Source: Antedon mediterranea (lineage: Eukaryota; Echinodermata; Crinoidea; Comatulida; Antedonidae). From it: a stretch of DNA of 64,000 nucleotides. Made by a program: the position numbers and the translations under genes. The stretch lies in NCBI RefSeq assembly GCF_964355755.1, contig NC_092672.1:11218501-11282500 (forward strand), written 5' to 3'. Below the pieces are notes generated by a model. That model was not told where the DNA came from. It searched no databases and saw only the letters and a list, made by a program, of their open reading frames with translations. Positions 25,253 to 63,925 of this stretch are shown here, in pieces; positions within the stretch are counted from its first letter, which is position 1; every line of letters begins with the position of its first letter.

Positions 25253-28200
25253 GTAAGTGTTAGTTGTTTTACAGTTACACACTCACGCTTTACTGACTTT
25301 CGGGCGTTAGACAAGGGCCATGCCGGTTAATTTAGTATGTCGATATATTAGGTCAAACTTTCGCAACCGAACATACCGCAAATTTGATATTAAATCTACA
25401 TCGGAAAATAACCAAGAACAGAGTCCATCCCCATATCTGTGTAGGGCTATAGTTTCTTTAGTTGATTAAAAGTCATATTGATAGATTTGTAACCACAAAC
25501 GATACTGGTTTGATTTTGACATTATCGTTATTGGGTTAACATCGCAATGTTCACGCTATCTGTGATGCCTGAGTGATAAGGTCAGCTATATTCGAACACC
25601 AATGGATGGTACACCTTATTATCATATCAGCCAATACCTTACTCTTCTTGTTCGGCCAATATGTATGTTTTCCATCGTAGATTTATAGGGTATTTAGAGG
25701 GTCAATTCGACCTCGTTGATAGTCTGCCCTTTCGGCGTTAGGAGGTCAGTTTTAAATTCTATCCACATCATAACCTATAGCATCTGATGGCTCACGCTGA
25801 TAGGTAACATTCTCCTTCAACACTCTAAGTATTGCCTACTGTGTTCCATTTGTCTATACACAATCAACGTTAAGCACCCCTACATTGATGCCTGCGATTT
25901 TGGCTGTGTCCGCACCGTGATGTACTCATGTAGGTCCAAACCAATAGAGGCTGATTTCTTGCAAAACATGTCCAACCAATATCTTATTCATTAGAGGTGA
26001 GTGTATAAACCAATGTTAATCATACGCATATCTTTTAAAGATACACTTAACATTAATGTTTTCCATCTTCCCGATATACGGTACGCTTTCCAGTTTGTTG
26101 CCATTTTTGTCTGTTTTTAGTACAGAATAGTTGGTTATGAATGTGTCTACTACTACTAAAACTATAAATTTGATTTATTTTTAAATAAATGACAATGTTG
26201 TAAGCCATTTTTAAAATAAGGCAGTTACATAGTATAGGCCTACAGGCTAACATGAAGAACATAAGAACTGTAAATATTATTTTAGATCGATTAAATAACC
26301 TATTATTAGTAGAAGTAGTAGGCCTAACTACGCTATAGTACACGTGGTGATGATCTTGATCAGTTAACATACTTTAGAGGCCACGCCCACAAACTTTGCC
26401 ATGGAAAAGGCGGCAAAATACACAACATAAACTAACTATATGAAGCAATGAATGCTAATGTTAATCGAAGTGATGCTATCTTCAATTTGCGTCCCTATCC
26501 CCTGTAATTCCTTAATGTTATAAAAGAAATTGGGTAGGCTAATAAATCTGGGAATGAAAACTGTACCAAAAATAAATCAAAAAAGTGAATTTGTATCAAA
26601 AAAGCGTAAATCAAAAACTGCTCACGCAATCCTCACCATAAAATATCGAAATCACCGTATTGACCCCAAGTGATGAAAATGAACGGCCTAGCTACATACA
26701 ACATATAAGGCCTACATATCTACAGTCTATTATGTTATATTTTGTTGTATTACAGAACAATAAACTATAGCAAATATATAAACTAGCTGACAGGTTTGGT
26801 CATGTTTGATGGTTTAAATATTTCCTGGCTAAATTCATAAAACGATCTAAGTTACATATTTATATAAAGAGCATAACACAATCGCAGACAAAAATGGCCT
26901 ATTTCTGTTAGGTGGTTTGACGCTCTGATCCCATCCGTCATGTCTTTGCACTGTTATCTTGAAATTGATTATTTTTACAGGGTTTGGCATTCCGTGTACT
27001 TGTACAGAGGGCAATTAGCACGTGGAAGAATGTGTAAAATCGTCAAATCTGCTCTAAAGATAGTTGAGAACGTGGTAGGCCTAGATTTGAGCAGTTTTCC
27101 ACGTCGTATAATTCTTATGCGATGCATAAAATTAGTAACCTGTACATTTTCCCTAGGCTATATTATTGGCCGGTTTCTTCAGCCTGAAAGTATTTGTATA
27201 ATGTTTTGCGTGTATGTTTTTGAACATGATATAGACCAGGTTATCTTACTCTTCCCTAATATCTAGATATAGGCCTTAGTAATGTACAAGAAATAGTATT
27301 TTGGAGCCAGTTCAGCCTTTTTGAATTTATAACTTTGCATTTCGGAGCCGAAGTGTGGAAGAGAACGTACCGTACCACACTTACCAAATATACATTGAAA
27401 ATATACTCGTTTATTATTGTAAGATGCTCTAATAATAGGCCCTATCTATAGATTTTCTGATGAGAAAAAATTGTAAGTCTATCAATCACTCAATCGTTCC
27501 ATTTTAAAGCGATCAAAGATCATTGCTCATAGCCTACTGTAGTTACAGCAAAACGGTACTGTTTTTGTATCGTTAAATTGCCATTTTAAACACTCAACAA
27601 ATATATTGTGTCAAATTAAATTCGTTCATTGATAAAATACTATTTGTATTTGCCAGACATAGTAGACACCAGGCACACACACATGTGTCATATTATATAA
27701 AACCGTATGAGAAATTATCGTAATATGTTACTTCCTCGGGTGAGTAAAGTTATAGTAATATCCGTTTCAAGTTTAAATACGAATATGGAGTGTTGTAGTG
27801 AATCTACATGCAAAACGAAATAAAGCGTTCGTGTATTCGTTAAATTTAAGAAAACCGCGTTAAAAATAGAATCACTCACGCGTTTGTTCAGCATCATGTC
27901 CACGCGTGGACGTCGTTAGGACTTTGAACTTGTTGATCAAGAGAGGGCGGTAAATCATGAAAAGGTGATGTTTAAATTGTGTTGCACCATGGATTAATGA
28001 ATATTCATTAATCCATGATATTCATTATTTCATGGTTGCATAGATTTCCGAATTAGACTGCGGAATATTATTTTTGCAATAGAAAAAAATGAGTTAAGTA
28101 TGCCTGTTACAGCAGCGAAATAGATAAGCCACATTAAAAAAAATGTACAGTGGTTCATTATAGATTAATAAAGTTAATTTACCAAGCCTACGAACACCTG

Positions 28201-31200: not shown

Positions 31201-34200
31201 CATATGTGCATATCAATACATTTCCTTACTTATTCGTAACTCTATTACTCCGGTTCTTAAAAGTACTTTGCTATTATTTAAAAAAATACCTAAACTGGAA
31301 AACAATACTCGTTGGTGGTACAAATGTATAAAATTATCAGTGGGTATCAACCACACAATATTTGCAGCATTAGCATCGCACAGTAGGTCTATTAGAAATG
31401 GTTAGGACATAGAAATGTAAATGTGCTACTGTACAACGGACGTTCGACCACAGTTAACCATTGTTGAATAATACTCGTATTTAATTAATTAGTGCGTATA
31501 ATATCCGAATTATACGTTTCTATTAAATACACACATGACGAACCCCCACCTATCACAGACCAGTCTGTGTTTTAATATTAATGACCAAGTGCGATCTTCG
31601 GACTTATGTTTGTCGAGGGTATTTCGACCTGGCCTGGATAGCTACGCCGGCGGCCAGCGACCATCCACTGGCTGAGTGTGTGAAAATACAGATTGGTAGT
31701 GAATGCTAAGCGATGGGTATAATTGGACCTTTATTTTGATTTCTAAATTTAGCCGGACTCTGTGCTTATTGTCTGGCAATGAGACATGCCTGGAATTCCA
31801 ATAGACTACTATTAAGGCTTCACTATCTGTCGTTCCTTGCTAGAAATAGAAGATTAATAATAGTGGGTGGGTATAACGGGATGCAATACATAGTCGTATG
31901 GGGTATTACCCCTATACCATATGTACGTCAACAATTATTATTATTGTATTCATTATGTATGATTTAGAGCCCTTCAATTCGGAATACTCTAATTGCATTA
32001 CCGTTGACCCGGAATGTTTGACCGGTTCCAGCTTCGCTACAAAATTCATTGTATATAACTGTAAAATTGCCATTACGAGATTGTAAAGAAATCTTTGTAA
32101 TGCCAGATAGAAATATTCCTCTAAAACAACTTCGCAATTAATCAAAAGGTACCAGGCATCTGACAAATCGTTATTATACTATTTTATAGGCTATTTTATT
32201 GAAATGCGGTACACACAAAACATAAATGGGTACATTCTTCTCAAAATAAAGTACATGCTAAACAGTATTACTCCCGGGGACCGAATATTGGAACAATTAG
32301 CTTGAGTAACTAAATAAAACAATAGTACACGTGTGGATAATGTTACGCGGAATTCACGGGAAAAAAATCGGAGTCCTGTCTCGAATTGGGTTACCAATGC
32401 CAAAACAATTAACCTATTTAGATCTGTGTACTTTATAGTGTGTATAAAATAGTACCAGCCCGACGGCGAGCCCTCGCAGAACAACTTAAATGCGTCAAAT
32501 ATCATTTTCACCAGACTCGAATGTTCTTTTTTTTTATCAGCTTTTATTAAATATGTATTTATTTTATTTATATACAAATTATTTCCCTCCCTCCTCACAT
32601 TTATTTAAAGCCGCAGACCATTACTATTGGCCATTTTATTTTCCCCATATATAGTTTTATTTTCCATGATATAATTAGCCCCTATCGTGTTTGGTATCAC
32701 GGCAATTTTAAAAGCCTGCATAATAATTTTATATCCTGGAAAGGAAGCTAAACATTTTTAATTTACCTTATGTAGATATTAAGCAGGCCTTTGCGACAAA
32801 TTTTGTACTGTATTATGTTATCTTTTATTAACGTCTTTAGTTTTTTTTTTATTACTGTAGCCCTATGTTTGCATACCTCCGCGCCTAACTCCGGTACCTA
32901 TGTTTAAAGCCTATCTTTTGCGAACAACATTTTCAAGTAATTATGTCTTCAATCCTGTCGTTATAATGATTACTGTACTATGTTTACCAGTATTCAGATA
33001 ATTAAGATAAGTTATATCATATTGGTTTATAAGTGAGCACTAAAATAAACCCGACGGTATCTGTATTTTCAATGTTTTCTTACTATAAATATTTACAAAC
33101 TTTAACTCAATTACCTGAGATATTATTCAAAATTAATTTTCCACTTGTGTATAGATAGTTGATATGTCTCTTATCTATTACCTCACATACAGTTATGAAC
33201 CATTAAAAGGGAACCACTGTTTGCATTCACACTTCAAACAACTCAAAGTCAAGGTCATTGGAAAGATAACGATGATAGCAACACTTACACCCTGTAAACA
33301 ATGTCTCCATTTAAGCTTATCATGCAGGAATATTTATCAAAAATGCGTCGCACCTAAAATTCTTGGGACAGACTTCCCGCGTTCTTCAATTCAATGTAAT
33401 CATATTTGTATGCATGGCACATCAACTAGAACATCGGTAGATATTTACCGGTACTGCCAGTTACACTCGTGACTACTAGATGCGACCATAGAGATATTAT
33501 AGTGAACTCACTATAATATCTCTATGATGCGACACACGACGCTAAGGATCGACGATAAATGGATACACATACATTTTTCTTACAGAAATATTCGAAAATT
33601 GTTTATTTAGAACTACATGATAACCAGTTACGTTGATGATAAAATGAATATTTTAAAAAAGTCAATAAAATGACGTTATGATCAAAAAATGATTATAACC
33701 AGTTGTGTTTTTAAAGTTAAAAATGAAGTTTCCAATCATCCCCAGACACGCAACATAGTCGTAATACCGGTATATTTTGAGTACAACCAGAATGTGATCT
33801 TTATCACGGTCTATTTCTAGAAAATGTCTAGTCAAATTACATGGTATGTTACCATAAAATAATGTTACCCCTCCCTTCGGGAAAACAATCTATAAAGCCG
33901 TCACATGATAAGAACGTTGTGTATAATGTAATACACAGAGTCAACGAACCTAAAGCCTTACTACTACGATAAGTTGTTAAAATATTAGCCTAAAGTCGAT
34001 ACGAAAGACCCGCAATATCTCCATCATTGCCTTTAATCAAATAGTTTTGACATCTGGTTTTGAGCCGTTTCCAGGGTTGTCGTGACCTAGATTTATGAGA
34101 CCGTATTCATTGTCAAGGCCAGCACAGTTTCGACGATGAAGATCATTATTTTTTTGTTATAGAGGGCGCAATAGAAATGTATGTGTCGAAAGTGTCTGAC

Positions 34201-37200: not shown

Positions 37201-40085
37201 GTGCATGTCAGAAATTGGTAAGTGTGTATATTAAGAAGATCGAACTTGGAATTTCGAATTTACTAATGGCATTAACGGTATTGATATTATTACGGTACTC
37301 ATAAAAACTTAATTGTTGTTAAAATAAAATCAGTACGGTATGGCGTATGCCTGTGTAACTTTAAGCTTGGTTCCCACATGACAAAACCCAACGACGTAGG
37401 CGCAACGCAAGTTCGGATGATCCATCGCGTCCAAAAATCGAGAATCAGGAAGAAATACTGAAGAAATTCTCGACGCAACAAATAATTTTCAGATTAAGTG
37501 ATAGATTTAGAATAACATTGCAAAGAACATTAAATGTATATTGTCCTCTTGAAGAAAAAAATAAAATAATACATTTTTTTGTTGAATATACCATTATAAT
37601 GTCAGAATAATAGTTATTCACTTTGACAAAAAATGGATTGAAAAAACAATTTTTTACCTGAAAAACTGTAACTCAAAGCAAGAAATAGTCCAATTGACTG
37701 AAAGTTTGGTTGAATTTAATCGTTTATTTTGTCTTTTCATAAGTTATTTTTTTCTACGAAAGTAAAACTGCAAAATGACCTATTCAAAGTCTTTTAATTA
37801 ATTAATTAATTAATTAATCATGTTTTAGGAAGACAAATACATCTTTAAATAAATCTCTTTCCTTCATTATATATTTAGGGATTGACATGCCGTGTATTAA
37901 TTACAAGAAGTATAATGCCAAGCCTTACCGATACGCTTATGGGACATCTAACGTACCCGCAGGAGGATTCGTTGATGCAGTAAGTTGTTTTATATTAATA
38001 CGAATACACAATACTCTTTGAATCTATTTAAAATTATGACGCAAATCTTAGAAAGACATATAATAAACTTCCAGAAAAAGTAAACACTGCCTTACCAAAC
38101 TTATTCAAAAAGATCAAAGGCGATTATATAGACTTTAGCCAACTGTCTTTACGAGCCATCCTTATATAAAACAGTCCTTGTTTTATAATTATTAATGTAG
38201 AGTATATTATGCTATAACATGTCTATTTTTAGTAACATACTTTATTGGCCAAACAATTGAAGTAAAACTGTAAATCGACACTGCATAATATTGCAGAATC
38301 TGTTTGCGAACAAGGTGACTCATCAGCATACGGTGGCCAAAATCAGATTGATTCGATCTTGAATAGAGTGTCCTAACATTAATCATTGAACAAATTATAC
38401 TGTAAAAATAAATGTATTATGGTACCAGTATACGTTATAATAAATATCTCGTCTTCTGGTAGATTGCTGTCAAAAGACGAGACACAACTCTTGCTGTCTT
38501 TTAGTCAGTACATGATATTTTACGTGTATCGGGTGAAAAAATGTACGATAATAGTATAGGAAGCCTACAATTATGGATCTTTCATATTATTATCCACTTG
38601 GTTTATGTTTATTTAGATGGCAAAAATAGATCTTCACACTAAGGAAAGTAAGATTTGGCAAGAACCTAATTGCTACCCTTCGGAACCAATGTTCATCGAA
38701 TCTCCAGACGCTGTCGATGAAGATGACGGTAAGAAACTCATTAGCTATTAGGGAGGTTTCGCAACCTTACGAATACGATAACGAAAACGGATACGTCATA
38801 CATTTGTGAAACTTTTGAGCTGATCCCCATTTCATATTAGTAAAGCGTATTCGTGTTGACGAATATCACCAGTCATATTCGTAACTACAAAACGAGTATA
38901 GTTTTTGATCTATTTTGCACATTTTGTATTTGAATTAGGAATGATTCATGATTATAATATAATTATAGATTTATTGAAAGTAATTTACTAAAGTAATTTA
39001 CTAAAATGCCAGGTCAATTTAGATAAATAGCAGTTTTTAAAGTCCTCACTCGCTTTGATGTTACGCTAGGCCTAGGCAGCCAAGCACCAAGCAACACGTA
39101 CCTGCGCTTTGCTCAAATTTACCGCAGTCGATCATATTCGTTGCCATGCGAAACAGATTTTTTTATGGTTTACGAAAACGAATACGTGTGCGTGACGTAT
39201 CCGTTTTCGTTATCGTATTCGTAAGATTGCGAAACCTCTCTATTTCTGTAAAACATTTAAAATTGATGGCTTGGAATATGCATTGCTTGCCATTTCACAT
39301 ACAGTAGATAACATTATAAACACTAAAAAAAATAAGATGAAGACTTTTTCACCTAGATATAGAAAGTTATATTATAATCAAAGAACTTATAACACAAGAA
39401 TCTCCTGTTCTTCAATTTGCATTCAAAACACAGTATCGGAAGTACAGTGTTAAAAAGTCAAACTGGGCGACGCCATTTCACAGCATGGAGCAGCGCCCCC
39501 TCCAAACTAGGAAGTCAATTACTCTACCCCCCCCCCCCCCTAGAGTATTAGCAGATCCCCTCTATGATTTTGACTTTCTAATTTGATGCGGGCGCCCTAC
39601 TCCTCAGTCAATTACTCTATCCCCCCTAGAGCATTAGCAGATCCCCTCTATGATTTTGACTTTCTAATTTGATGCGGGCGCCCTACTCCTCAGTCAATTA
39701 CTCTATCCCCCCTAGAGCATTAGCAGATCCCCTCTATGATTTTGACTTTCTAATTCGATGCGGGCGCCCTACTCCATGGCTCACAACGGCGCCACCCATA
39801 GCTCTATTCTATCCCACAATGCCTTTCGAAATTGTTACGCGTTTCGGACGAACAGGAGATTCTTGTGTTATAAGTTCTTTGTTATAATATAAACTCATTT
39901 TAACTGATGAACATCCGTTTTATCTTATAGGTGTTATTTTATCGTGCATTGTTAATTCTGAACACCGTAGTGCATTTCTGCTTGTCTTGGATGCAAAAAC
40001 ATTTAAAGAAATAGGACGAGCCCAACTTCCTGACAACATAGAGTGTGGCTTAACATTCCATGGACATTTTGAGAAATGCTCATGA
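25168..40085 (+). CDS. Carotenoid oxygenase (BCO1/BCO2/RPE65 superfamily, BCO2-like)
   Basis: Eight exons join in frame (25168-25252, 34602-35005, 35546-35684, 36214-36680, 37109-37217, 37879-37979, 38617-38728, 39931-40085) into 523 codons plus stop, the usual length of this family. Members are non-haem iron enzymes that cleave carotenoids or isomerise retinyl esters on a seven-bladed beta-propeller. Visible family marks are RNGPGLF (residues 41-47), HWFDGLSLLHRF (56-67), TEFGTLGIPDPCKNIFERF (98-116), the four predicted iron ligands H178, H235, H306 and H516, and the second-shell acids E145 and E458. The third second-shell position is D404 where Glu is usual. The FERF ending of the PDPCKN motif is more like BCO2 than RPE65 or BCO1, but orthology needs a tree. 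No mitochondrial leader is obvious. All introns have GT/AG ends with phases 1,0,1,0,1,0,1 in order, a strikingly regular alternation. Intron 7 holds two MITEs. Confidence 0.93.
26053..26165 (-). mobile_element. LINE 3' fragment (reverse-transcriptase C-terminal tail)
   Basis: On the - strand, one frame reads ITNYSV..TDKNGNKLESV and another frame contains NRQKWQQ...EDGKH. This matches, with frameshifts, the end of the better preserved relic at 55079 (ITNHPAINRQKWKQIVES followed by EDGKR). Both stop at nearly the same place just before a TTAAC/TTAAT, as expected of 3' ends of one LINE family. It is a dead fragment. Confidence 0.7.
27988..28034. mobile_element. 47-bp palindromic micro-insertion with 7-bp flanking repeats (6/7 match)
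   Basis: The first 30 bases form a perfect palindrome (CATGGATTAATGAAT and its complement); the remaining 17 repeat a variant arm ending TTTCATG. The insert begins CATGGATTAATG and ends CATTATTTCATG, inverted with two mismatches in 12. Flanks are GTTGCAC at 27981-27987 and GTTGCAT at 28035-28041. This is structurally like the inserts at 33487 and 44813, though with an imperfect duplication. Confidence 0.6.
29430..29554. mobile_element. GTTCCCAC fold-back element, copy in intron 1
   Basis: The left end is AGCTGGT, interrupted, then TTCCCACTAGAGACG. The right end is CGTCTCTCGTGGGAACCAGG followed by CT. The interior carries AACGCAAGTGATT and CCGCTTGCGTTGCG, the same words as the copies at 9812 and 35155. 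It is non-coding. Confidence 0.72.
30477..30745. mobile_element. Rearranged copy of the 5700-type MITE
   Basis: GAGCTCTGTCTACACCATCA at about 30477 matches the inverted end of the element at 5700-5841. At 30652-30745, CTATCAACGTTTATGTGACA and then GGACATGATGGTGTCATATC matches its interior. About 140 bp of other sequence separates the two parts, so this is a mosaic of two fragments or an interrupted copy. Confidence 0.6.
30755..30900 (+). repeat. Minisatellite, 37-43-bp units
   Basis: AGCAGCTATAGTTGGCAAGA followed by TACTTGTAACAGTAACAGCT and ATT is repeated: one 37-bp unit, two 43-bp units and a partial unit. It directly abuts the MITE fragment at 30652-30745. Confidence 0.88.
33487..33526. 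mobile_element. 40-bp perfect hairpin insertion with 7-bp target duplication
   Basis: Two perfect 19-base arms starting CATAGAGATATTATAG surround a 2-base centre (AC). The identical 7-mer ATGCGAC occurs directly before (33480-33486) and directly after (33527-33533). Length, CA...TG ends and the 7-bp flanking repeat match the insert at 44813-44855, although the arm sequence differs. Confidence 0.75.
34383..34443 (+). repeat. Dispersed repeat, diverged third copy of the 1788 family
   Basis: CTAGACCTACACCCCGGGGT, AACCCTACTCTTCCGAAAGA and TGCACTG follow the same block order as copies near 1788 and 8872 with more differences. It lies 160 bp upstream of exon 2 of the carotenoid oxygenase gene. Confidence 0.55.
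34602..35005 (+). CDS. Carotenoid oxygenase exon 2
   Basis: It encodes residues 29-163. It carries IPKWIKGTMIRNGPGLFEVG, a family hallmark near the N-terminus, then HWFDGLSLLHRF, TEFGTLGIPDPCKNIFERF and LTETQYIRKID, in which E145 corresponds to a conserved second-shell glutamate. The acceptor is TTTTTTAATAG|GA (phase 1 in) and the donor ACAGG|GTAAGT (phase 0 out). Confidence 0.95.
35155..35311. mobile_element. GTTCC fold-back element in intron 2
   Basis: The left part is GATTGGTTCC then TTTGGACGCAACCCAGCGAC; the right part is TTACGTCTAAGAAAACCAAG. Internal AACCAATCACAAGCG and its diverged inverse give a fold-back structure. It is more decayed than the copy at 9812. Confidence 0.6.
35546..35684 (+). 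CDS. Carotenoid oxygenase exon 3
   Basis: It encodes residues 164-209. It contains SSHPHVDVDGCTYNMASS, where H178 of the HPH motif is the first predicted iron ligand, and CYYNIVKFTPNTG, a conserved strand of the propeller. The acceptor is TATTTGCAG|GTTG and the donor ACAG|GTACGT, phase 1. Confidence 0.95.
36214..36680 (+). CDS. Carotenoid oxygenase exon 4
   Basis: The largest exon, residues 210-365. KPSYYHSFGMTTNYFIFLEQ supplies the second predicted iron ligand H235, and GMHVINSYEQDGHVIFDMCC supplies the third, H306. The open frame runs upstream to 35907 but that part is intronic; TTTGTTTAG|GTCCC gives the phase needed to join exon 3. The donor is TTCG|GTAAGT, phase 0. Confidence 0.95.
37109..37217 (+). 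CDS. Carotenoid oxygenase exon 5
   Basis: It encodes residues 366-401, starting WTPRDSNLVTLKNSKATARL, a variable propeller region of the family. The acceptor is TTTTCACAG|TGG and the donor AATTG|GTAAGT. The reading frame is kept on both sides, which supports the exon although its sequence is less conserved. Confidence 0.88.
37362..37425 (+). mobile_element. Half copy of the GTTCCCAC fold-back element
   Basis: AAGCTTGGTTCCCACATGAC then CGTAGGCGCAACGCAAG matches the left arm of the copy at 9812. No matching right arm follows, so it is truncated. It lies in intron 5. Confidence 0.6.
37879..37979 (+). CDS. Carotenoid oxygenase exon 6
   Basis: It encodes residues 402-435. It carries GIDMPCINYKKYNAKPYRYA, equivalent to the EFPQINY region of relatives; the usual second-shell Glu is Asp404 here. 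The acceptor is ATATTTAG|GG and the donor GATGCA|GTAAGT, phase 0. Confidence 0.92.
38617..38728 (+). CDS. Carotenoid oxygenase exon 7
   Basis: It encodes residues 436-472. IWQEPNCYPSEPMFIESPDA contains E458, a conserved second-shell glutamate, followed by the DEDDG turn completed in exon 8. The acceptor is TTTATTTAG|ATGG. The donor GACG|GTAAGA lies 22 bp before the MITE that starts at 38751. Confidence 0.94.
38751..39240. mobile_element. 490-bp MITE with 48-bp inverted ends and TA flanks
   Basis: The left end GGGAGGTTTCGCAACCTTAC continues with GAATACGATAACGAAAACGG and ATACGTCA; the right end is its inverted copy with very few mismatches. It is flanked by TA on both sides, as expected for Tc1/mariner-type insertion (established for that superfamily; assignment here is inference). 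No coding capacity is visible. It occupies most of the first half of intron 7 of the carotenoid oxygenase gene. Confidence 0.85.
39379..39881. mobile_element. 503-bp element, CAAAGAAC ends, 7-bp target duplication, 86-bp internal triplication
   Basis: The ends are CAAAGAACTTATAACACAAG... and its inverse, about 34 bp each. The 7-mer TTATAAT flanks it on both sides (39372-39378 and 39882-39888). Inside, an 86-bp unit with GATGCGGGCGCCCTACTCC is present three times (at 39585, 39671 and 39757), after a C-tract. The sister copy at 43398 has one unit. It is non-coding; a 72-codon frame at 39669-39887 is translation of the repeat. It sits in intron 7, 49 bp before the last exon. Confidence 0.9.
39931..40085 (+). 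CDS. Carotenoid oxygenase exon 8 (terminal)
   Basis: It encodes residues 473-523 and the TGA stop. VILSCIVNSEHRSAFLLVLD is the conserved penultimate strand and LTFHGHFEK supplies the fourth predicted iron ligand, H516. The protein ends seven residues after this His, close to the family's usual C-terminus. The acceptor is TATCTTATAG|GTG. Confidence 0.95.
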
Positions 40086-41820: not shown

Positions 41821-43397
41821 AGAACATAAGAACTTTAGTTTAACACTACACAATATGTATGTACTGTAAGCGGGGAAACTGTACACTGGTGGTGAAAATA
41901 CGAAACTTTATTTCACTCTCGCAGATATATTATATAGATGTGTGTGAGAGTAAAACTATCACAAAGCTTACCATGGATACAAATATATGATAATTAGGTA
42001 TGATATTATAATGATTATATCACATATTCAATTCAATATTTTTGTTTTAAATCCTAAATTTATATATTCTATAATAATTATAACATAATTTGTGCTTTTT
42101 AATTATTATTTTGAATGTGTGAGTAATTATTTTTATGTATTTAACCCATCGTAGCAACACTGTTTTAATAATTATAATTGTATATATAATTGCATATACC
42201 TATGCTTTCTAATGTAAACTGTTGCGTTGTTTTGTTTGATGTGATTCCAACGCAGGTAGTACTTAATTATGAATCATACACGCTACATTTTGTGTTGTCT
42301 ATGTATAAGCCTATTAACAGAACATGTTTGTTAAATCTACATCCTCACCTGTTCAGTTTAAACAAAATACGAAAACTTCGTTGAGAAAAAAACAATTGCG
42401 GTATTACAGATTATATAATCGTTAAAACACGCGCATGCGTATTAGGCCAACATATTTTGTAAGGTTATCTTATTTTTATCAGCCGATTCGACTCCTCGAG
42501 TCCATGAGGATCCTGAGTTAGTAGAGGTTCATGTTCGGAAATATTAATTGTCAAGCCTACATTCCACCGCCAAAATTGCAGAACTATAACATTGCGTCCG
42601 GGTTAGAAACGAAACTTCGGTCTACTTTTGACCAATCACTGTCCGTCTCGCAGTTTATAACATCTCGAAGGTCACGAATAAGTTAAAGCGGGTAGGACAA
42701 ATTGCAAGCGGAAAATGTGAATACATTTTTTCACTGAATAATGTCGGACGTCTTAATGTACCCGGTTCAATTTCAAACAGGTTCAAATGTACAGTAATGG
42801 TTAAACACAATTAGCAATAATTAACCCATTAAAATAATTATCTGTAGGGCCTTCTTGGTCGACTCTAGAAGCACTATGAAATACTTAATACCATTCGCTT
42901 TGTGTACCTGCATACACAAACAAACTTAGGTTAGAATCAGGGAAGAGTAATTCCCCTGGTTAGAATCTAAAGTTGCCATTATCTTCTCGATTCAGTTTAA
43001 TATTGAATGTACGTGCAATGGAAAAAATATATTTTAAAAATCATATTAATACATTGATAATTGATTTTGGTTAAATTCGCAGTTTTATTCAATTTGTAAA
43101 TTTCAGTACTGATTTAAAATTATAATTTTACATTTTGTTAAAGATAGTTTTTTTCTTAAAACAACTAATAAAAATGTAATAGAAAAAAGGCATAATTAAA
43201 TTATGTTATCCGAGTAACTATCAAAATAACACATTTGCATGCTGCGTTACATTAATACTTATGCCTATAATTTGTATGTATACATTTATAAATAATTGTT
43301 AACACATATGTTTTTTATTGCCTCGTATCCTTATGTTGTTAATTATCCAAAGTATATTAATAGTAAATTGTCATTGTCAATAGTTGATTAGTAATAA
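41821..43397. other. Intergenic DNA, no gene seen
   Basis: AT-rich sequence between the carotenoid oxygenase gene and the next gene. No exon-like segment was recognised. Confidence 0.5.
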
Positions 43398-43730
43398 CAA
43401 AGAACTTATAACACAAGAATCTCCTGTTCTTCAATTTGCATTCAAAACATAGTATCGGAAGTACAGGGTTAAAAAGTCAAACTGGGCGACGCCATTTCAC
43501 AGCATGGAGCAGCGCGTCCCCTCTAAACTAGGAAGTCAATTACTCTACCCCCCCCCCCTCCCTCTAGAGTATTAGCAGATCCCCTCTATGATTTTGACTT
43601 TCTAATTTGATGCGGGCGCCCTACTCCATGGCTCACAATGGCGCCACCCATTAGCTCTATTCTATCCCACAATGCCTTTCGAGATTGTTACGCGCTTCGG
43701 ACGAACAGGAGATTCTTGTGTTGTTCTTTG
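43398..43730. mobile_element. 333-bp element, CAAAGAAC ends, 7-bp target duplication
   Basis: Sister copy of 39379-39881: same ends (the right end has lost 5 bases, ATAAG), same C-tract, and a single internal GATGCGGGCGCCCTACTCC unit. The 7-mer GTAATAA flanks it exactly (43391-43397 and 43731-43737). Two different 7-bp duplications at two sites firmly define the element limits. Confidence 0.92.
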
Positions 43731-44609
43731 GTAATAATACCAAATGCTGCTTATTTGTAGAAACGTTACCATTGTAAACTATACCTATAGGCCTGACGTA
43801 GATGCACGTCATAACAATTATAAACTATGTAAATGAAGGTCTAACCTTCCCCAATTTCACGTGTATATAATAAGTTCGAATTAATTAGTAACAATTATTA
43901 AATGAGCTTTCTGCTGCACACAGAAACCTGAAATATGTAAATTAAATAATAATAAAATCGGTACAACACGATTATATATTAAGAACCATGGTAATAAGAT
44001 TATGGATTATTGTGTTATTATTTGTCAACAATGATTAATATGCAAATATTGAATAAATACAACTAAGCTTTAAAAAATAATATATAGTGATTGTTTTCTG
44101 AATCGGTGTTCATTCTCTGTAAATACTTCAGTTTATTTTAAACATGTAGGCTACACGAGTCCACACCAACAATAACCGTTCCATATCGAAACTGCGTAAA
44201 GTTAAAGTGTGCTCAACGGTCGAATCATTCGGACGTTTCTAATGGTTTTTACGAATAAATGTGATATTAAAACTATCTGGAGAACTGATAACAGATTGTT
44301 AGTAGGGGTCTGAGAGATTCTCCTTGACCTCTTAGTTGGTTTTTATTAGGTCTAGGTCTGATTTACTACATGATCAGTACACATGCACATCGTCTTTCTC
44401 CTCGGAAAAGCTTGAGACGATGGTAAGCGCCACAAAGCTGGGGTAAAGGTAGGGCGGAGGTTGAGAGCAACAGAACAAATGTTCCAGATATCGTTTCAAG
44501 CAACGCATGCGCAGCAATCAAAGGCAAATTCATAACAATAATAAAAAGTAAGTTCGTTTAAATGAATTATCGCGCGCAGAATCATGAAATGCCCGTTTAT
44601 CTGATCTGA

Positions 44610-44670: not shown

Positions 44671-44812
44671 ATGTTACGCCGACACTTTTTTTATTCTGTT
44701 TTCCTGTTAGGCCTATGTAATGTTAAATAATGTTCATGGTTTAGGGGGAAGGAGGGATTACGCAAACGATTTGATTTGTTAACGTTAAATTTAAACGTTT
44801 ACGTGCTCGTAC

Positions 44813-44855
44813 CAAAGATTGTATAGCGCCGCTACGCGGCGCTATACAATCTTTG
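44813..44855. mobile_element. 43-bp perfect hairpin insertion with 7-bp target duplication
   Basis: Perfect 20-base arms (CAAAGATTGTATAGCGCCGC and its complement) flank a 3-base loop, TAC. CTCGTAC is found directly before (44806-44812) and after (44856-44862). The CAAAG...CTTTG ends match the first five bases of the elements at 39379 and 43398, which also make 7-bp duplications. Confidence 0.8.
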
Positions 44856-45650
44856 CTCGTACGAAAGCTTTCTATTTTAGCACTGGATGTGTACGTTGGT
44901 GGTGCGTTGGTGGTTGTGATCAATCATATGTTCGAAAGATCCATACGCGAGGAATCAGAACACCGCGCGGGGCGTCCTGCAAATGCAGTGTGCTTCCCTC
45001 CTAAATCTCTGTTGTAAACACTGCAACACTATTCTGTTCAAACAAAAAAAAACAAAATAATATTTTTGTATACTAGGCTATACTATTAACATAATAAAAT
45101 TGTATTAAGGTAGGTCTAGTCTGGCATGACAGGTATTGGAATGTGTGAGTCGTTCTTGTTTCTAGGTCGGCCTACCTACAGGCCTAGCCTAGTAGCCTAG
45201 ATAAGCATGTAGGTTAGGTAGACCTTATAGCCTACTTAAAATGATTATGTCAAAGTTCGATAGCTTATTATAGGATACATTGGATGTGTGCGCTCCCTCG
45301 GACTTGACGACATCCATATGAAATTGTTGTTTTAGACTAGTTTTAGACTAGGCCTAGGCTTATACTGTCATCATGTGCAGAATGATTAGGTTTGCTAAAC
45401 TTAGTTAGTATGATAAACCTACATTAATTATTATGGCTCATGTGTACTTTAAACTCGAGACGAGTAGAGGATTCCCCCTTGTATACACACGGCCATTGTC
45501 ACACACATACACTTATCATAACTAATCAAGAGGACTGTTTTTATGGTCACCCTCTATAAATAAGGTGAAATAAAAATTAATAAATTAAATAAATTGACAG
45601 ATGTGTTAAGCACCGTCCCACAACCCCTTTAATTTCTATATTATTTCTAG

Positions 45651-56600: not shown

Positions 56601-59600
56601 AATATTCCGTAATAGTTATTACAAAGTGCGACAACTTTATTAAAAAGTGCAATAGCAGTTATTACAAATGCCATAATAGTTATTACAAAGTGCGACAACT
56701 TTATTAAAAAGTGCGATAGCAGTTATTACAAATGCCATAATAGTTATTACAAGTGCGACAACTTTAAAAAAAAAGTGCAATAGCAGTTATTAAAAAGTGC
56801 GATAGCAGTTATTTTTAAATTTGATTATTTTTTAATTTAATTTTTAAAAATTCCATAATATTTATCACAAAGTGCGACAACTTTATTAAAAAGTGCAATA
56901 GCAGTTATTACAAGTGACATAATAGTTATTACAAAGTGCGAAAATTTTATTAAAAAGTGCGATAGCAGTTATTAAAAATTCCATAATAGTTATTACAAAG
57001 TGCGACAACTTTATTAAAAAGTGCGATAGCAGTTATTACAAATGTCATAATAGTTATTACAAAGTGCGAAAACTTTATTAAAAAGTGTTACAAAGTGCGA
57101 AAACTTTATTAAAAAGTGCAATAGCAGTTATTACAAATTCCATAATAGTTATTACAAAGTGCAACAACTTTATTAAAAAGTGCAATAGCAGTTATTACAA
57201 GTGCCATAATAGTTATTACAAAGTGCGAAAACTTTATTAAAAAGTGCGATAGCAGTTATTTCAAATTCCATAATAGTTATTACAAAGTGCGACAACTTTA
57301 TTAAAAAGTGCGATAACAGTTATTACAAATGCCATAATATTTATTACAAAGTGCGACAACTTTATTAAAAAGTGCAATAGCAGTTATTACAAATTCCATA
57401 ATAGTTATTACAAAGTGCGACAACTTTATTAAAAAGTGCGATAGCAGTTATTACACATTCCATAATAGTTATTTCAAAGTGCGACAATGTTATTACCAAT
57501 TGAGGTTGAAGTATTACAAAGTGCGACAATAGTCATTACAAATTGCTACAATTTTAAAACAAAAATAATCAGTTATTAAACTAGTTATTAAAAATGTGTG
57601 ACAATTTGTTTACAAAGTTTGAAAATTGTTATTAAAATAGTGTGACAATTTGTTTACAAATTAAATACAGATTTATTTAATTTAGATTCACTTTTTGTTT
57701 ATTTTCAGACGTCCTAAATGCTGACGAAGGTAAGCATTTTTATTATGAATATGCCTATACATTCCTTATTATAAGAAAAGATTATTGAATAATAATCTAT
57801 TACACAAAAACTAAGAAGCAAAATAACGTACAATAACATAATCGAAAAAATAACCTCTTTAGTAGAGTAAATCTATATATAAATTATGGTTAATTCTGAC
57901 ATAGGCGAGCACAATGGAAACACTTCGGTACTAAACTCCGCCTTATCTATCTCAGATGTACCGCGAATATACCGCGTTATAACGCCCTAATTATACAATA
58001 CGTTCACACGTACATGCGCATGCGTAGTAAATCAACAAACCCAGAGCCATAATAATAATAACATTATTTTGATGATTTTAAACAAAAAAATAGCTTTGAT
58101 CCATTTAATTTAACGGCTCTGGCTGTGCGCTCCATACACGATCTTCGTGTTTATTGTAGGCTACAGCGATTCTCTAGTAATTGCTAGCATTGTTTTTACA
58201 TATTTTTGGTTAAAATCATCTTTGCAGTAACTTTATGATTGCGTTATCTTAACTAAAATCTTTAAACAAATTGATTGTTTTGATATTTAAAACCTTGTGA
58301 ATGTTATACATTTTTTAAGCACATGACTCCATACACTACATAGGCATAGTTGGACACAAAGATTGCTAGTAATGTACCACGTGACTTTTTAAAATCCGTG
58401 AATGCGCCGAGAGGTTTGTTGATGTACTACGCATGCGCATGTACGTGTGAACAGATTGTATATTTAGGGCGTTATAACGCCGTATTTAGGGGGTTATCGG
58501 CGTTATAACGCCCTAATACGGCGTTATAACGCAGTATTATTATAATTTTTTATTCTTTGGCGGAAATCAGCCACCGTAGATAAAGGCTTTTTAAAGAAAA
58601 TTTCTGATTTCAATCGGTAAATTTTAACTCTACGCGCGGTAGAAGTAATTTCCGGGTTCACGGTAAGGTGCTGTGTCAATCACCTTGCAACTTCCCTGCA
58701 TGGTTGGTTTCTACCAGGGAGTTGTAAAACAAATCCCTGTTTCAACTAAGTTGGCCTCTGGTGCTTGGTGGCGATAGCCATTTTTAGTTTATTTTCGGAC
58801 CGCGCGTGTGAAGGTATATAGATAGTAGTACATAAAGATCAAATTAAATATATTCATAAAACATAGGAGTAGGCCTAATGTGGGAAATAATTATATAAGA
58901 TTACATCGAGAGAACTGATGATAAGAGCTTTTGTTTGAATGAAAAGAAACCCGGATAGACGATTTGTTGAGTAAGCTGCCAGGAATGTATGTATACTGTG
59001 CACCGTTAGGACCCTGGAAAACTGCCCATGTTGCAAGCCGTCTAAAAGTCTTCATCGTCTTCCTTCTTAGGCCAAAAAGGCTCACTGTGTCGCGAAATAA
59101 TGTATTAATTATACCAATTAGGATGGTATTTATTTGATTAAACGCCCGGAACACCTCTTCAATAAAACATCAATTAAAATAAGTATCGCCACCCTCTAGT
59201 AATAATAATTTTACCACCACCATTCTAAACAAAATTACAAATAGACGCCCTATAAAAAAAATTATGCGTTACCAATATGATCTATTCTTTGCAATTGCCA
59301 CAAATAGCCGCCCTATAAAAAAAATCATGCGTTACTAGTATGGTTTATTCTTTGCCATTGCCGCAAATAGCCGTCACAAGTAGTTTAAATTCGTCGTGTC
59401 ATTACCCTACCCTCTTGGGGTAGAATTATATTTACATAGAAAGTCACATATTGCTCATTCTTCTGAGGGCCTACTTATATTTATACAACATAACTGCCCA
59501 TCCTAATGATGGCTTATTGTATTTTTTATTTAATACTTTGAATTAATCTGTAAAACTATTAAGTTTGATGCATTGTGAAATAAAAACGAATGAACGAACG

Positions 59601-62600: not shown

Positions 62601-63925
62601 GAAGGCATGACGTCAAACCCTCAATGCGGAGAACCAATAGCAGCTGATGACACTACTGCATCATCCATCATCGACCGACAGTGCAATCCTACACTTGATG
62701 GTCAATACGTCAGTATATCCCTAGAAAACAACTACCTAACTCTTTGTGAAGTCGAAGTATGGGGAGATGGTATGAACTAATGTAGTTAGCGCAATAGCGT
62801 ATTAATTTTATGTGTAAAAGCATGTACAAATCTTTCAGAATAATAATAAATAATAGCTATAATTAATATATTTATATATATATAATAATAATCTTTTAGA
62901 GATAAAAAATAAATGTCACGGGCACTTGTGTGTCTGTATGCATACAATGTTCCAAGCTAAAACAGAATTCTTTGTTTATCTTTTTCAGGAGATATGGAAA
63001 GACCTGTCGTTTCTGAATCTCCTTCTGGTAATGCTCACTACTGGTCATAACAGACTAGATAATCATATTAAGATATGAATCCTATTCTTGACTTATCTTG
63101 TATTAGGCTTACATATAAATATAGTTCTAATTCTCCTGTCATTCTACTGCAGATACGAGGCTTCATACATGAAAGTCTTCCAGTGGATCTGAATACATGT
63201 CATGTAATGATATAAATATGTATATAATTATGACACTAAATAACTAATTCTAAATATGGTTAGATTCTAGCCCAATGAAGCAGCGGCTACTGCAAAACCA
63301 GCATGATGATAATAATTATGATTATTATGAAGTATTTTAAAATTAATTTAAGATGAAAAAATGAATGAATAAGGTACAATTACGAGAAAATTTCGAGAAA
63401 AGAAAAGAGCAAATATCTGACAATACCGTGCTCCCTGAAGCAAAGCTACTTTGAAATAGATATTCAATTTAAACCTGTTTGGGGCTGCTTCATTGGACTT
63501 GAATCTAAAGGGCCTTTCACACCTGTTCCGGCACGGTTCCGGTCCGGCAAATCGAACAAAAATGTTTCGTTTTTACGACGCTCCACGCAGCCAAGCACCA
63601 ACCGATATGCGCGTAGCCGCGTGAAAACGAAACATTGACGTTCGATTGGATTTGCCGTCGCCGGACCGGAACCGTGCCGGAGCAGGTGTGAAAGGCCCTT
63701 AACTCTAGTCAGGCAAGCTCGATTGTCTAGAACGCTAGGCTAGAGATACCGGAGTAAATGGGTTAGTGTCCCAAATTTGAATTGTATTTATGTTTACTTG
63801 CTAAGGGTTGTTGTCGGCTGGAAAACCCACTGCTCAGAGTTCATTAGGATGGCAAGGTTTATCGATGAGAGCCGTTGATGGCGATTACGGGGCAAGATAC
63901 AACCAGAGAACTTGTACTCATACTC
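53473..63925 (+). CDS. Secreted protein with tandem F-type lectin domains (3' end beyond window)
   Basis: Twelve exons are seen, all joined in phase 1: 53473-53608, 55672-55722, 57709-57729, 59627-59659, 60098-60223, 60519-60599, 61220-61432, 61916-62035, 62177-62257, 62563-62769, 62989-63027, 63806-63925. They give 409 codons so far. Order: signal peptide (about 1-19), a short Cys-containing region, an acidic linker (46-80), F-type lectin domain 1 (81-220), domain 2 (221-356), a linker (357-369), and the start of domain 3 (370 onward). F-type (fucolectin) domains bind fucose-containing glycans and serve in innate recognition in many invertebrates and fish (family knowledge). Family marks seen are SQSSEGWSGVASRAID, SCTHT, SWWKADL, VRIYNR, GERLESAVVRVGD, and conserved Cys in DPCG, KYC and LTLCEVE. 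The canonical sugar-binding R-x-D-x4-R stretch is altered in both complete domains (see findings). The 3' end lies outside the window. Confidence 0.92.
54130..54956 (-). mobile_element. 827-bp element, inverted copy of 48580-49338
   Basis: On the - strand it repeats the structure of the first copy: AACAAGGCCAACAGCCATTA, AGTCGCGTGCTAC, GACAGACC tract, GCGC-rich interior, second tract, and CACGCGACT. The tracts are longer here, explaining most of the size difference. Frames at 54089-54277 and 54780-55037 are translations of the microsatellite (SVGLSVCLSV...). Confidence 0.85.
55079..55640 (-). mobile_element. LINE relic: C-terminal part of a reverse transcriptase
   Basis: On the - strand, several frames joined by frameshifts contain YNSELWVLNKKLQESIDIY, RRRLKWYGHIIRLPDDTPIK, VKRPVGRPRNNWMNQI and NRQKWKQIVES. 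The order (YxSExWxL, then RRRLKWxGHIxRxPDD, then GRPRxxWxxQI, then DRxxWxxxV) is characteristic of the C-terminus of non-LTR retrotransposon polymerases (family knowledge). It is broken by frameshifts and is dead. A fragment of the same family is at 26053. Confidence 0.88.
55672..55722 (+). CDS. F-type lectin gene exon 2: acidic linker, 51 nt
   Basis: It encodes ETVIEEEQQDVDENEIE, with ten Glu/Asp among 17 residues. It enters and leaves in phase 1. The acceptor (TATGTGAAAAG) is poor in pyrimidines while the donor is GAAG|GTATAA, so splice strength may be low and the exon optional. It resembles the next two linker exons in acidity and phase. Confidence 0.65.
55723..57708 (+). other. Intron 2 of the lectin gene, mostly minisatellite
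   Basis: A 2-kb intron of which about 1.75 kb is the TTATTACAAAGTGCGACA array listed separately. Confidence 0.75.
55880..57665 (+). repeat. 1.75-kb minisatellite, TTATTACAAAGTGCGACAGC units
   Basis: More than 60 degenerate units. The 5' part is regular: a 26-bp unit GTTATTACAAAGTGCGACAG then CGCTGA, grouped into higher-order blocks marked by TACAATAGTAGTTACTGTA (near 56040, 56165 and 56295). The 3' part uses units of about 40-60 bp mixing TTATTAAAAAGTGCGATAGC, AGTTATTACAAATGCCATAA and CAACTTTATTAAAAAGTGC. It lies entirely in intron 2. Confidence 0.93.
57709..57729 (+). CDS. F-type lectin gene exon 3: 21-nt acidic microexon
   Basis: It encodes DVLNADE only. It is flanked by a strong acceptor (TTTATTTTCAG) and donor (GAAG|GTAAGC), both phase 1, so it is in frame with neighbours. 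The good splice sites and the acidic content like exons 2 and 4 support it despite its size. Confidence 0.65.
57974..58480. mobile_element. 507-bp element with about 68-bp inverted ends, GCGTTATAACGC termini
   Basis: The left end starts GCGTTATAACGCCCTAATTA and continues through CGTTCACACGTACATGCGCA and TGCGTAGTAAATCAACAAAC. The right end (58413-58480) is the inverse with a few mismatches. The end itself contains a 12-14-bp palindrome. On the right two further GGCGTTATAACGCC copies follow to 58532. Non-coding, in intron 3 of the lectin gene. Confidence 0.8.
58540..59626 (+). other. Rest of intron 3 of the lectin gene
   Basis: No exon recognised. A short local duplication is visible: AATAGACGCCCTATAAAAAA near 59240 and AATAGCCGCCCTATAAAAAA near 59306, each followed by an ATGCGTTACnA block, a unit of about 66 bp. 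An 87-codon - strand frame at 58891-59154 has no known motif. Confidence 0.5.
59627..59659 (+). CDS. F-type lectin gene exon 4: acidic linker, 33 nt
   Basis: It encodes DVVEIVEVVEP. The acceptor is TTTTTTATTACAG|AT and the donor CCGA|GTAAGT, phase 1 both sides. It completes a 35-residue acidic and Val-rich spacer between the N-terminal region and the first lectin domain. Confidence 0.7.
60098..61432 (+). CDS. F-type lectin domain 1 (three exons)
   Basis: Exons 60098-60223 (126 nt), 60519-60599 (81 nt) and 61220-61432 (213 nt) encode a 140-residue domain, residues 81-220. It has ASQSSEGWSGVASRAIDGG then SCTHT, SWWKADLAETSDILFVRIYN, and GERLESAVVRVGDNENADAN, ending CEVEAYSAG. The conserved Cys residues of the fold (SCTHT, DPCG, KYC, LTLCE) are present. 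The loop after IYNR reads NSFGER, without the usual D and adjacent CysCys. Confidence 0.92.
60995..61147. mobile_element. Decayed GTTCCCAC fold-back element in the lectin intron
   Basis: The right end TTGCGTTGCGTTCTGTGGGA then ACCAAGC is clear. The left side (CCATTTTCCATAAATGCGGC then GACG) is strongly diverged. It lies between the second and third exons of lectin domain 1. Confidence 0.5.
61916..62769 (+). CDS. F-type lectin domain 2 (three exons)
   Basis: Exons 61916-62035 (120 nt), 62177-62257 (81 nt) and 62563-62769 (207 nt) encode residues 221-356, with TQSSEGWSGVASRAVDAS, TCTHT, NWWKLDLGNSYTVRFVRIYN and ERLAGAIVRVGDDEG, ending LTLCEVEVWGDG. For the third exon the AG at 62561-62562 must be used; the AG two bases earlier gives an immediate in-frame stop. 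The loop after IYNR is only HER, shorter than in domain 1. Confidence 0.9.
62989..63027 (+). CDS. F-type lectin gene exon 11: linker, 39 nt
   Basis: It encodes GDMERPVVSESPS between lectin domains 2 and 3. The acceptor is TTTTTCAG|GA and the donor TCTG|GTAATG, phase 1 both sides. It is a hydrophilic spacer with acidic and Ser/Pro residues. Confidence 0.75.
63508..63700. mobile_element. 193-bp fold-back element, Harbinger-like ends
   Basis: The ends are AAGGGCCTTTCACACCTG followed by TCCGGCACGGTTCCGGTCCG, and the inverted counterpart. The interior also pairs (CGAAACATT/AATGTTTCG). TAA lies on both sides if the element is read as AGGGCC...GGCCCT, matching the 3-bp target preference of PIF/Harbinger transposons (family knowledge). 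Non-coding; it lies in the intron before lectin domain 3. Confidence 0.75.
63806..63925 (+). CDS. F-type lectin domain 3, first exon (domain cut by window end)
   Basis: It encodes GLLSAGKPTAQSSLGWQGLS, then MRAVDGDYGARYNQRTCTHT. At 120 nt in phase 1 to 1 it equals the first exon of domain 2. The donor is CTC|GTGAGT. The rest of the domain is outside the window. Confidence 0.9.

Follow-up and report, generated by a model that had tools for sequence, protein, structure and literature searches.

A 40-bp hairpin between 7-bp direct repeats in Antedon mediterranea is probably the excision footprint of a P-superfamily transposon

The 40-bp hairpin at position 33487 of the window (the whole 64,000-nucleotide stretch of Antedon mediterranea DNA that was analysed) is very likely the scar left by excision of a DNA transposon of the P superfamily or of a non-autonomous relative, a reading to which we give a probability of about 0.88. 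An earlier note, made from the letters of this DNA, had described a hairpin between two copies of ATGCGAC and interpreted it as a micro-transposon; the first observation was right, and the interpretation was probably wrong. On the footprint reading, the 7-bp repeats would have arisen when a larger element inserted, and the hairpin when it left. Units of this kind are read as excision footprints because their joints vary, their arms are partly missing, and the P element junctions described in PMC2895639 look alike.

The hairpins in the window

The features considered in the window are as follows.

33480..33486, plus strand: left 7-bp target-site duplication ATGCGAC, an exact match with 33527-33533
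33487..33526, no strand assigned: probable 40-bp excision footprint of the CATAGAG family, two CATAGAGATATTATAGTGAACT ends inverted and joined
33527..33533, plus strand: right 7-bp target-site duplication ATGCGAC
44806..44812, plus strand: left 7-bp target-site duplication CTCGTAC
44813..44855, no strand assigned: probable 43-bp excision footprint of another family with ends CAAAGATTGTATAGCGCCG, arms of 20 and centre TAC
44856..44862, plus strand: right 7-bp target-site duplication CTCGTAC
27988..28034, no strand assigned: weaker 47-bp candidate footprint with ends CATG...CATG, flanks GTTGCAC/GTTGCAT (6/7)
39379..39881, no strand assigned: element with ends CAAAGAACTTATAACACAAG, in which no transposase was found
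43398..43730, no strand assigned: second copy of the 39379 element family

The unit at 33487-33526 (locus L001) consists of two perfect 19-nt arms around a centre AC, and on the minus strand it decomposes into 19 nt and 22 nt of the end with an overlap of 1 nt. Recurrence of the structure, which had also been claimed, held for 44813 (43 bp, arms of 20, CTCGTAC on both sides) and in part for 27988, where a 47-bp unit is present but is weaker, with flanks agreeing at 6/7. The left arm of the latter is repeated in inverted orientation inside the unit, possibly as templated filler. The larger elements were found, as stated earlier, to make 7-bp duplications, with exact copies of TTATAAT (39372-39378 and 39882-39888) around the first and of GTAATAA (43391-43397 and 43731-43737) around the second.

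The earlier note had proposed a comparison with shuffled sequence, and this was run on the window. A strict test required a length of 24-120 bp, no more than 1 mismatch between the 12-nt ends, and 7-bp flanks that are exact and non-trivial. Only 33487-33526 and 44813-44855 passed it in the whole window, against none in 200 dinucleotide shuffles and 6 in total in 1,600 shuffles (0.004 expected per window, 2 observed). The perfect 40-bp hairpin between exact ATGCGAC copies at 33480-33533 was thus confirmed as lying beyond chance. Looser tests gave a weaker separation: when the 12-nt ends could differ at 2 positions and units could reach 200 bp, there were 183 passes in 1,600 shuffles and 3 observed, and with 10-nt ends 57 in 1,600 shuffles and 1 observed, the complexity filter of the latter having dropped the 33487 hairpin.

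A random sample of 200 kb (loci L005-L024) was scanned as well. An initial scan requiring exact 7-bp flanks, whose complexity filter also dropped the 33487 hairpin, detected 44813 and, in L006, L007 and L016, units that lack CA...TG ends; a looser scan of window and random sample together gave 6 passes against a shuffle mean of 0.65. Inspection of weak matches to the CATAGAG end (7 in the random sample, 1 in the window) revealed two scars, one of 21 bp at L021:4554-4574 with exact GTTATAC flanks and one of 26 bp at L012:7843 with flanks agreeing at 6/7. In 177 trials with control 7-mers, 8 gave an exact match.

Abundance and target sites of the CATAGAG family

The 33487 40-mer, allowing up to 3 mismatches, occurs at four places in the genome (354-Mb, 18-contig assembly). 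Their flanks all differ; two are exact (ATGCGAC/ATGCGAC and ATTATTC/ATTATTC) and two agree at 6/7 (GTAGGCT/GTAGGTT and GTATAGA/GTATAGT). The end itself, CATAGAGATATTATAGTG, gave 731 + 732 = 1,463 matches in the whole genome at up to 2 mismatches, compared with 17 + 18 = 35 for the reversed pattern. One hairpin may match twice (59 sampled sites contain 84 end matches), so the number of CATAGAG sites is estimated at about 1,000.

The sample consisted of 63 loci, namely L001-L004 and 59 of L035-L094, with the tandem array L037 excluded. The fetched loci come from 60 stretches around the 100 exact matches listed of the 1,463, and since these 59 were selected for an exact 18-nt end, retained lengths below 18 lie outside the sample. 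With 7-bp flanks at no more than one mismatch, 48 of the 63 loci could be resolved (41 exact, 7 with one mismatch), leaving 15. The duplications differ between sites. Exact, site-specific 7-bp duplications at 41/63 loci imply that a transposase making such duplications is involved, and this part of the earlier proposal is upheld.

The duplications fit the pattern NTNNNAN in 25 of the 41 exact CATAGAG cases, compared with 10.7% of background 7-mers (p 9e-15), and by eye the pattern is also fitted by those at 33480, 44806, 39372 and 43391. Judged from sequence, this target preference agrees with that of the P superfamily. A duplication length of 8 bp was considered and rejected: 33487, 44813, L033, L034 and L060 would allow 8, but L003, L038, 39379 and 43398 allow only 7. 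Where 8 bp is possible, the base preceding the 7-mer agrees with the last G of the unit.

Anatomy of the units

The 48 resolved units range from 22 to 46 bp with a mode of 36, besides two doubtful cases of 54 and 92 bp, and comprise 31 distinct sequences. One 36-mer, CATAGAGATATTATAGTGAACTATAATATCTCTATG, accounts for 17 loci with different 7-bp duplications, and the remaining 31 loci hold 30 distinct units; L060 has this 36-mer too, counted there with one flanking G. Apart from the 36-mer, one 35-mer is common to L051 and L074, and the 40-mers of L001 and L002 are nearly identical.

The left end is kept over 22 nt at 24 loci, 21 nt at 7, 20 nt at 6, 19 nt at 10 and 18 nt at 1. These values were obtained with a comparison string of 22 nt, longer retention being judged by eye against L038 only; the next base of L038 (G) continues in 2 of the 24 loci that keep 22 nt. 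Several loci with exact duplications are one-armed, with 1, 2, 5, 6 and 8 nt of the other arm kept at L093, L041, L039, L073 and L080, respectively; at L041 and L093, 21-22 nt of one end is retained and the other is almost gone. The fillers at L086 and L043 copy tail sequence, as seen by eye.

Like P footprints, the family thus has direct duplications in the 7-8 bp range and terminal-repeat tips joined with microhomology or filler, but it keeps up to 22 nt of an end where at most 17 nt would be expected of a P footprint. The 17-nt value cited here is for Drosophila P only, so this weakens identity with Drosophila P and not a P-like mechanism; retention beyond 17 nt is read here as a longer stagger. 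When 22-nt tails were modelled, the longest tip microhomology, ACT, gave exactly the 36-mer. Among the other filler-free joins, 9/16 lack microhomology, which is about the random expectation, so it is the 36-mer that carries the case for microhomology.

An empty site, which the earlier note had suggested looking for, was found at L093, where the flank is repeated in tandem and the second copy lacks the insert, with CTGTGAC present once. The check succeeded to that extent, but the unfilled copy is a paralogue and belongs to a site other than 33487.

Search for parent elements

The only long element seen among the 63 sampled loci is L038 (566 bp, CATAGAG ends, flanks GTTTCAA). A genome search revealed no second full copy; partial matches were found at C11:14808816, C6:17545645 and C3:15245684, which share the first 33 bp only, and at one place covering bases 6-72 with 81% identity. 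PF21787, the P-type RNase H domain, has 35 matches in the genome, none of which was seen by eye near CATAGAG ends among the 100 listed of 1,463 matches. Among the matches listed, genome searches with the end, L038 and PF21787 found no autonomous element with CATAGAG ends.

For the 44813 family, the end CAAAGATTGTATAGCGCCG gave 555 genome matches at up to 3 mismatches, against 17 for the reversed pattern. The 100 exact matches that were listed include 17 facing pairs with a spacing of up to 1.5 kb: seven of 43 bp (including 44813), eight of 441-456 bp, one of 257 and one of 784. From these spacings, the hairpins and their probable parents appear to form two size classes, 43 and about 454 bp. 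In the P-type loci L025-L027, L030-L033, L095 and L096, the best matches to CAAAGATTG had 5-6 mismatches of 19.

A P-type element and footprints with its ends

A family with CTGAGACAAC ends (CTGAGA family) does have a parent with a P-type transposase and matching ends, present as L033 and L034. The first is described as follows.

L033:1999-7549: P-type element of 5.55 kb with inverted ends CTGAGACAACAATCAAAG and a 7-bp duplication CGGACAC

L033 encodes both PF21787 and PF21788 in an open frame of 794 aa, and L034 is a copy with 99.4% identity and the duplication TATAAAC. A third near-identical P-type element of about 5.5 kb with the 794-aa frame lies at G000:C3:37947660-37953233. These three copies have probably been active recently.

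Footprints with L033 ends were predicted before the genome was searched for them. The 18-nt end gave 70 matches at up to 2 mismatches, compared with 16 for the reversed pattern. Six of the eight exact matches are the ends of the three full-length copies, and another has a partner end with one mismatch at a distance of 5.9 kb, with PF21787 matches in between; the remaining one (C4:12650556) could be tied to no copy or pair. In 8 of the 11 one-mismatch matches, base 18 is the only difference.

Twenty CTGAGA places, selected for mismatches at bases 15-18, were fetched, and 18 are independent, as L097-L099 have one common flank. Exact 7-bp flanks were present at seven of the 18 (units of 18-33 bp), flanks with one mismatch at three and none at eight. 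More than 17 nt of the end is kept at 0/20 places, partly by construction; given the selection at bases 15-18, the family keeps no more than 17 nt of each end, as P footprints do. This limit fits the predicted 17-nt stagger, because footprints of 18 nt would be exact matches, and no more than one of the exact matches is left over. All seven exact footprints fit NTNNNAN by eye, and the own duplications of L033 and L034 fit it at position 6 and not at position 2.

A further near-identical pair of P-type loci, L095/L096 (99.5% over 5.7 kb), starts with TCTGCCACGC; no inverted counterpart of this end was found in the fetched part of the two loci.

Excision model

On this model, a larger element first inserted and duplicated 7 bp of target, as shown by the flanks and, at another site, by the unfilled tandem copy at L093. 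The transposase would then excise it by a long staggered cut within each terminal repeat, and the chromosome ends would be expected to retain single-stranded 3' tails corresponding to the first 17 to 22 bases of the element. Since the joined tails have identical sequence in opposite orientation, a near-perfect palindrome between the 7-bp copies would result. In the modelled case of the 36-bp product, a 22-nt tail would anneal through its tip ACT to an internal AGT of the other tail. At other sites the joins show no microhomology, 1-2 nt of it, or filler. From the length of end retained, the cut offset is inferred to be 17 nt in the L033 family and apparently up to 22 nt in the CATAGAG family.

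Alternative explanations

The strongest competitor, although an improbable one, is a true micro-transposon, a 36-bp palindrome mobilised through its ends of about 17 nt or as an extruded hairpin, with the variants produced by later deletions at the unstable centre. The presence of the 36-mer at 17/48 resolved sites with different duplications would be explained in this way, as would the finding of a long element at only 1/63 sampled loci and of no second full L038 copy in the genome search. However, deletion from the 36-mer could not create the 22-nt arm seen at L035 and 33487-33526 or the fillers of L086 and L043, and the joints lie within the terminal repeat while the duplication is intact. 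Furthermore, hairpins of the same class carry the different ends of the P-type element L033, and the 44813 family includes, besides its 43-bp hairpins, facing ends separated by about 454 bp. A 36-bp duplex is also too short for pairing of both ends by looping. A version in which the 36-bp palindrome was formed as a scar and then became mobile, its 17-nt ends sufficing for local P-type transposases, is just as improbable; if true, it would be an exceptionally small cut-and-paste element.

The earlier note had inferred that units of about 40 bp were mobilised by a transposase whose recognition target is very short ends or a hairpin structure. The 31 distinct units among 48, with their variable joints and fillers, do not support such a fixed unit, nor is a special enzyme supported, because hairpins of this kind are also left by L033, which is P-type and has different ends, and published P junctions are alike. 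A transposase recognising the hairpin as such was rejected on the variable units and on the production of such hairpins by a P-type element with other ends.

Slightly less probable again is that the footprints come from a different superfamily, whose transposase likewise cleaves deep within the element. No transposase could be linked directly to either set of ends, CATAGAG or CAAAGATTG, which leaves room for such an origin, but the 7-bp duplication, the Galileo-like target preference and the identical footprint anatomy for the P-type element L033 in this genome argue against it. In addition, a 17-nt stagger sets P apart from the other cut-and-paste transposons characterised, according to PMC7776569.

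Ordinary very short MITEs, i.e. internally deleted P-type copies inserted independently, are more doubtful still. Their ends and duplication length would be those of the larger elements, as is observed for L038 and the paired ends of the 44813 family; the 31 distinct units among 48 loci speak against them, and several units, in which nearly one whole end is missing, are very unlikely to have inserted in that form.

Palindromes arising by chance, or hairpins built by stepwise mutation, have a negligible probability: looser tests were poorly separated from shuffles, but chance is rejected on the strict-test shuffles, and the 1,463 versus 35 end matches and the unfilled tandem copy at L093 point the same way.

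Comparison with known systems

P transposase is described as cleaving 17 bp inside each end, which generates 17-nt 3' extensions (PMC7776569). Rejoined fly donor sites carry, between the two duplications, up to 17 nt from one end and up to 17 nt from the other in inverted orientation, with microhomology or filler at the join; two excision joints were recovered 14 times each (PMC2895639, Table 1). The present units resemble these products of alternative end joining in layout and in the frequent recurrence of a few joints. They differ in having 7-bp rather than 8-bp duplications, in occurring naturally and genome-wide rather than in a laboratory excision assay, and, in the CATAGAG family, in keeping as much as 22 nt of the end instead of at most 17 (PMC2895639).

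Galileo, a P-superfamily element of Drosophila buzzatii, makes 7-bp duplications with the consensus GTAGTAC (PMC2775673), which fits the NTNNNAN preference found here. Unlike the present units, Galileo has long, internally repetitive terminal repeats. Terminal inverted repeats are shared with MITEs and palindromic transposable elements, such as the 32 MITE-like clusters of 430-1678 nt, six of them palindromic, reported in PMC3212995; MITEs insert as a unit, however, whereas the hairpins described here are far shorter and best read as remnants.

Titles and abstract openings of the papers listed on the smallest MITEs and on P-type or MITE footprints contained no mention of genome-wide P-type footprint palindromes, and searches on perfect-palindrome MITEs and on P-excision overhangs gave no paper. 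P-type footprints have been described in excision assays in flies, and a natural genome here seems to hold an estimated 1,000 or so of one family. What is new is this abundance and the reading of a cut offset from sequence. Such footprints would form a fossil record of excision, would make it possible to deduce from sequence how far inside the ends an uncharacterised transposase cuts, and would record how breaks are rejoined in the germ line of this animal. They are also a warning that short palindromes with target duplications are not necessarily transposons.

Other observations

The excluded locus L037 (G000:C1:19904600-19905200) contains 11 head-to-tail 43-bp units, each the 36-mer plus GTCCAGG (GTTCAGG in one), and is a footprint expanded into a tandem repeat. 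In the random sample, a 52-bp unit CATATAACCT...AGGTTATATG at L006:7699-7750 has exact 9-bp repeats CATATCATG on both sides, and the ends of L006:4936-5578 resemble those of this unit.

Within the window, a 25-bp unit CAGGGAGTT...AATCCCTG at 58715-58739 has flanks TTTCTAC/TTTCAAC (6/7) and is close to chance level. Inverted-repeat pairs at 57960-58494 (82-nt arms, 89%), 38749-39242 (50 nt, 96%) and 63508-63700 (41 nt, 98%) are perhaps larger non-autonomous elements. An ORF at 35907-36695 matches the RPE65 family (PF03055, 1.6e-27), so that the window has at least one gene.
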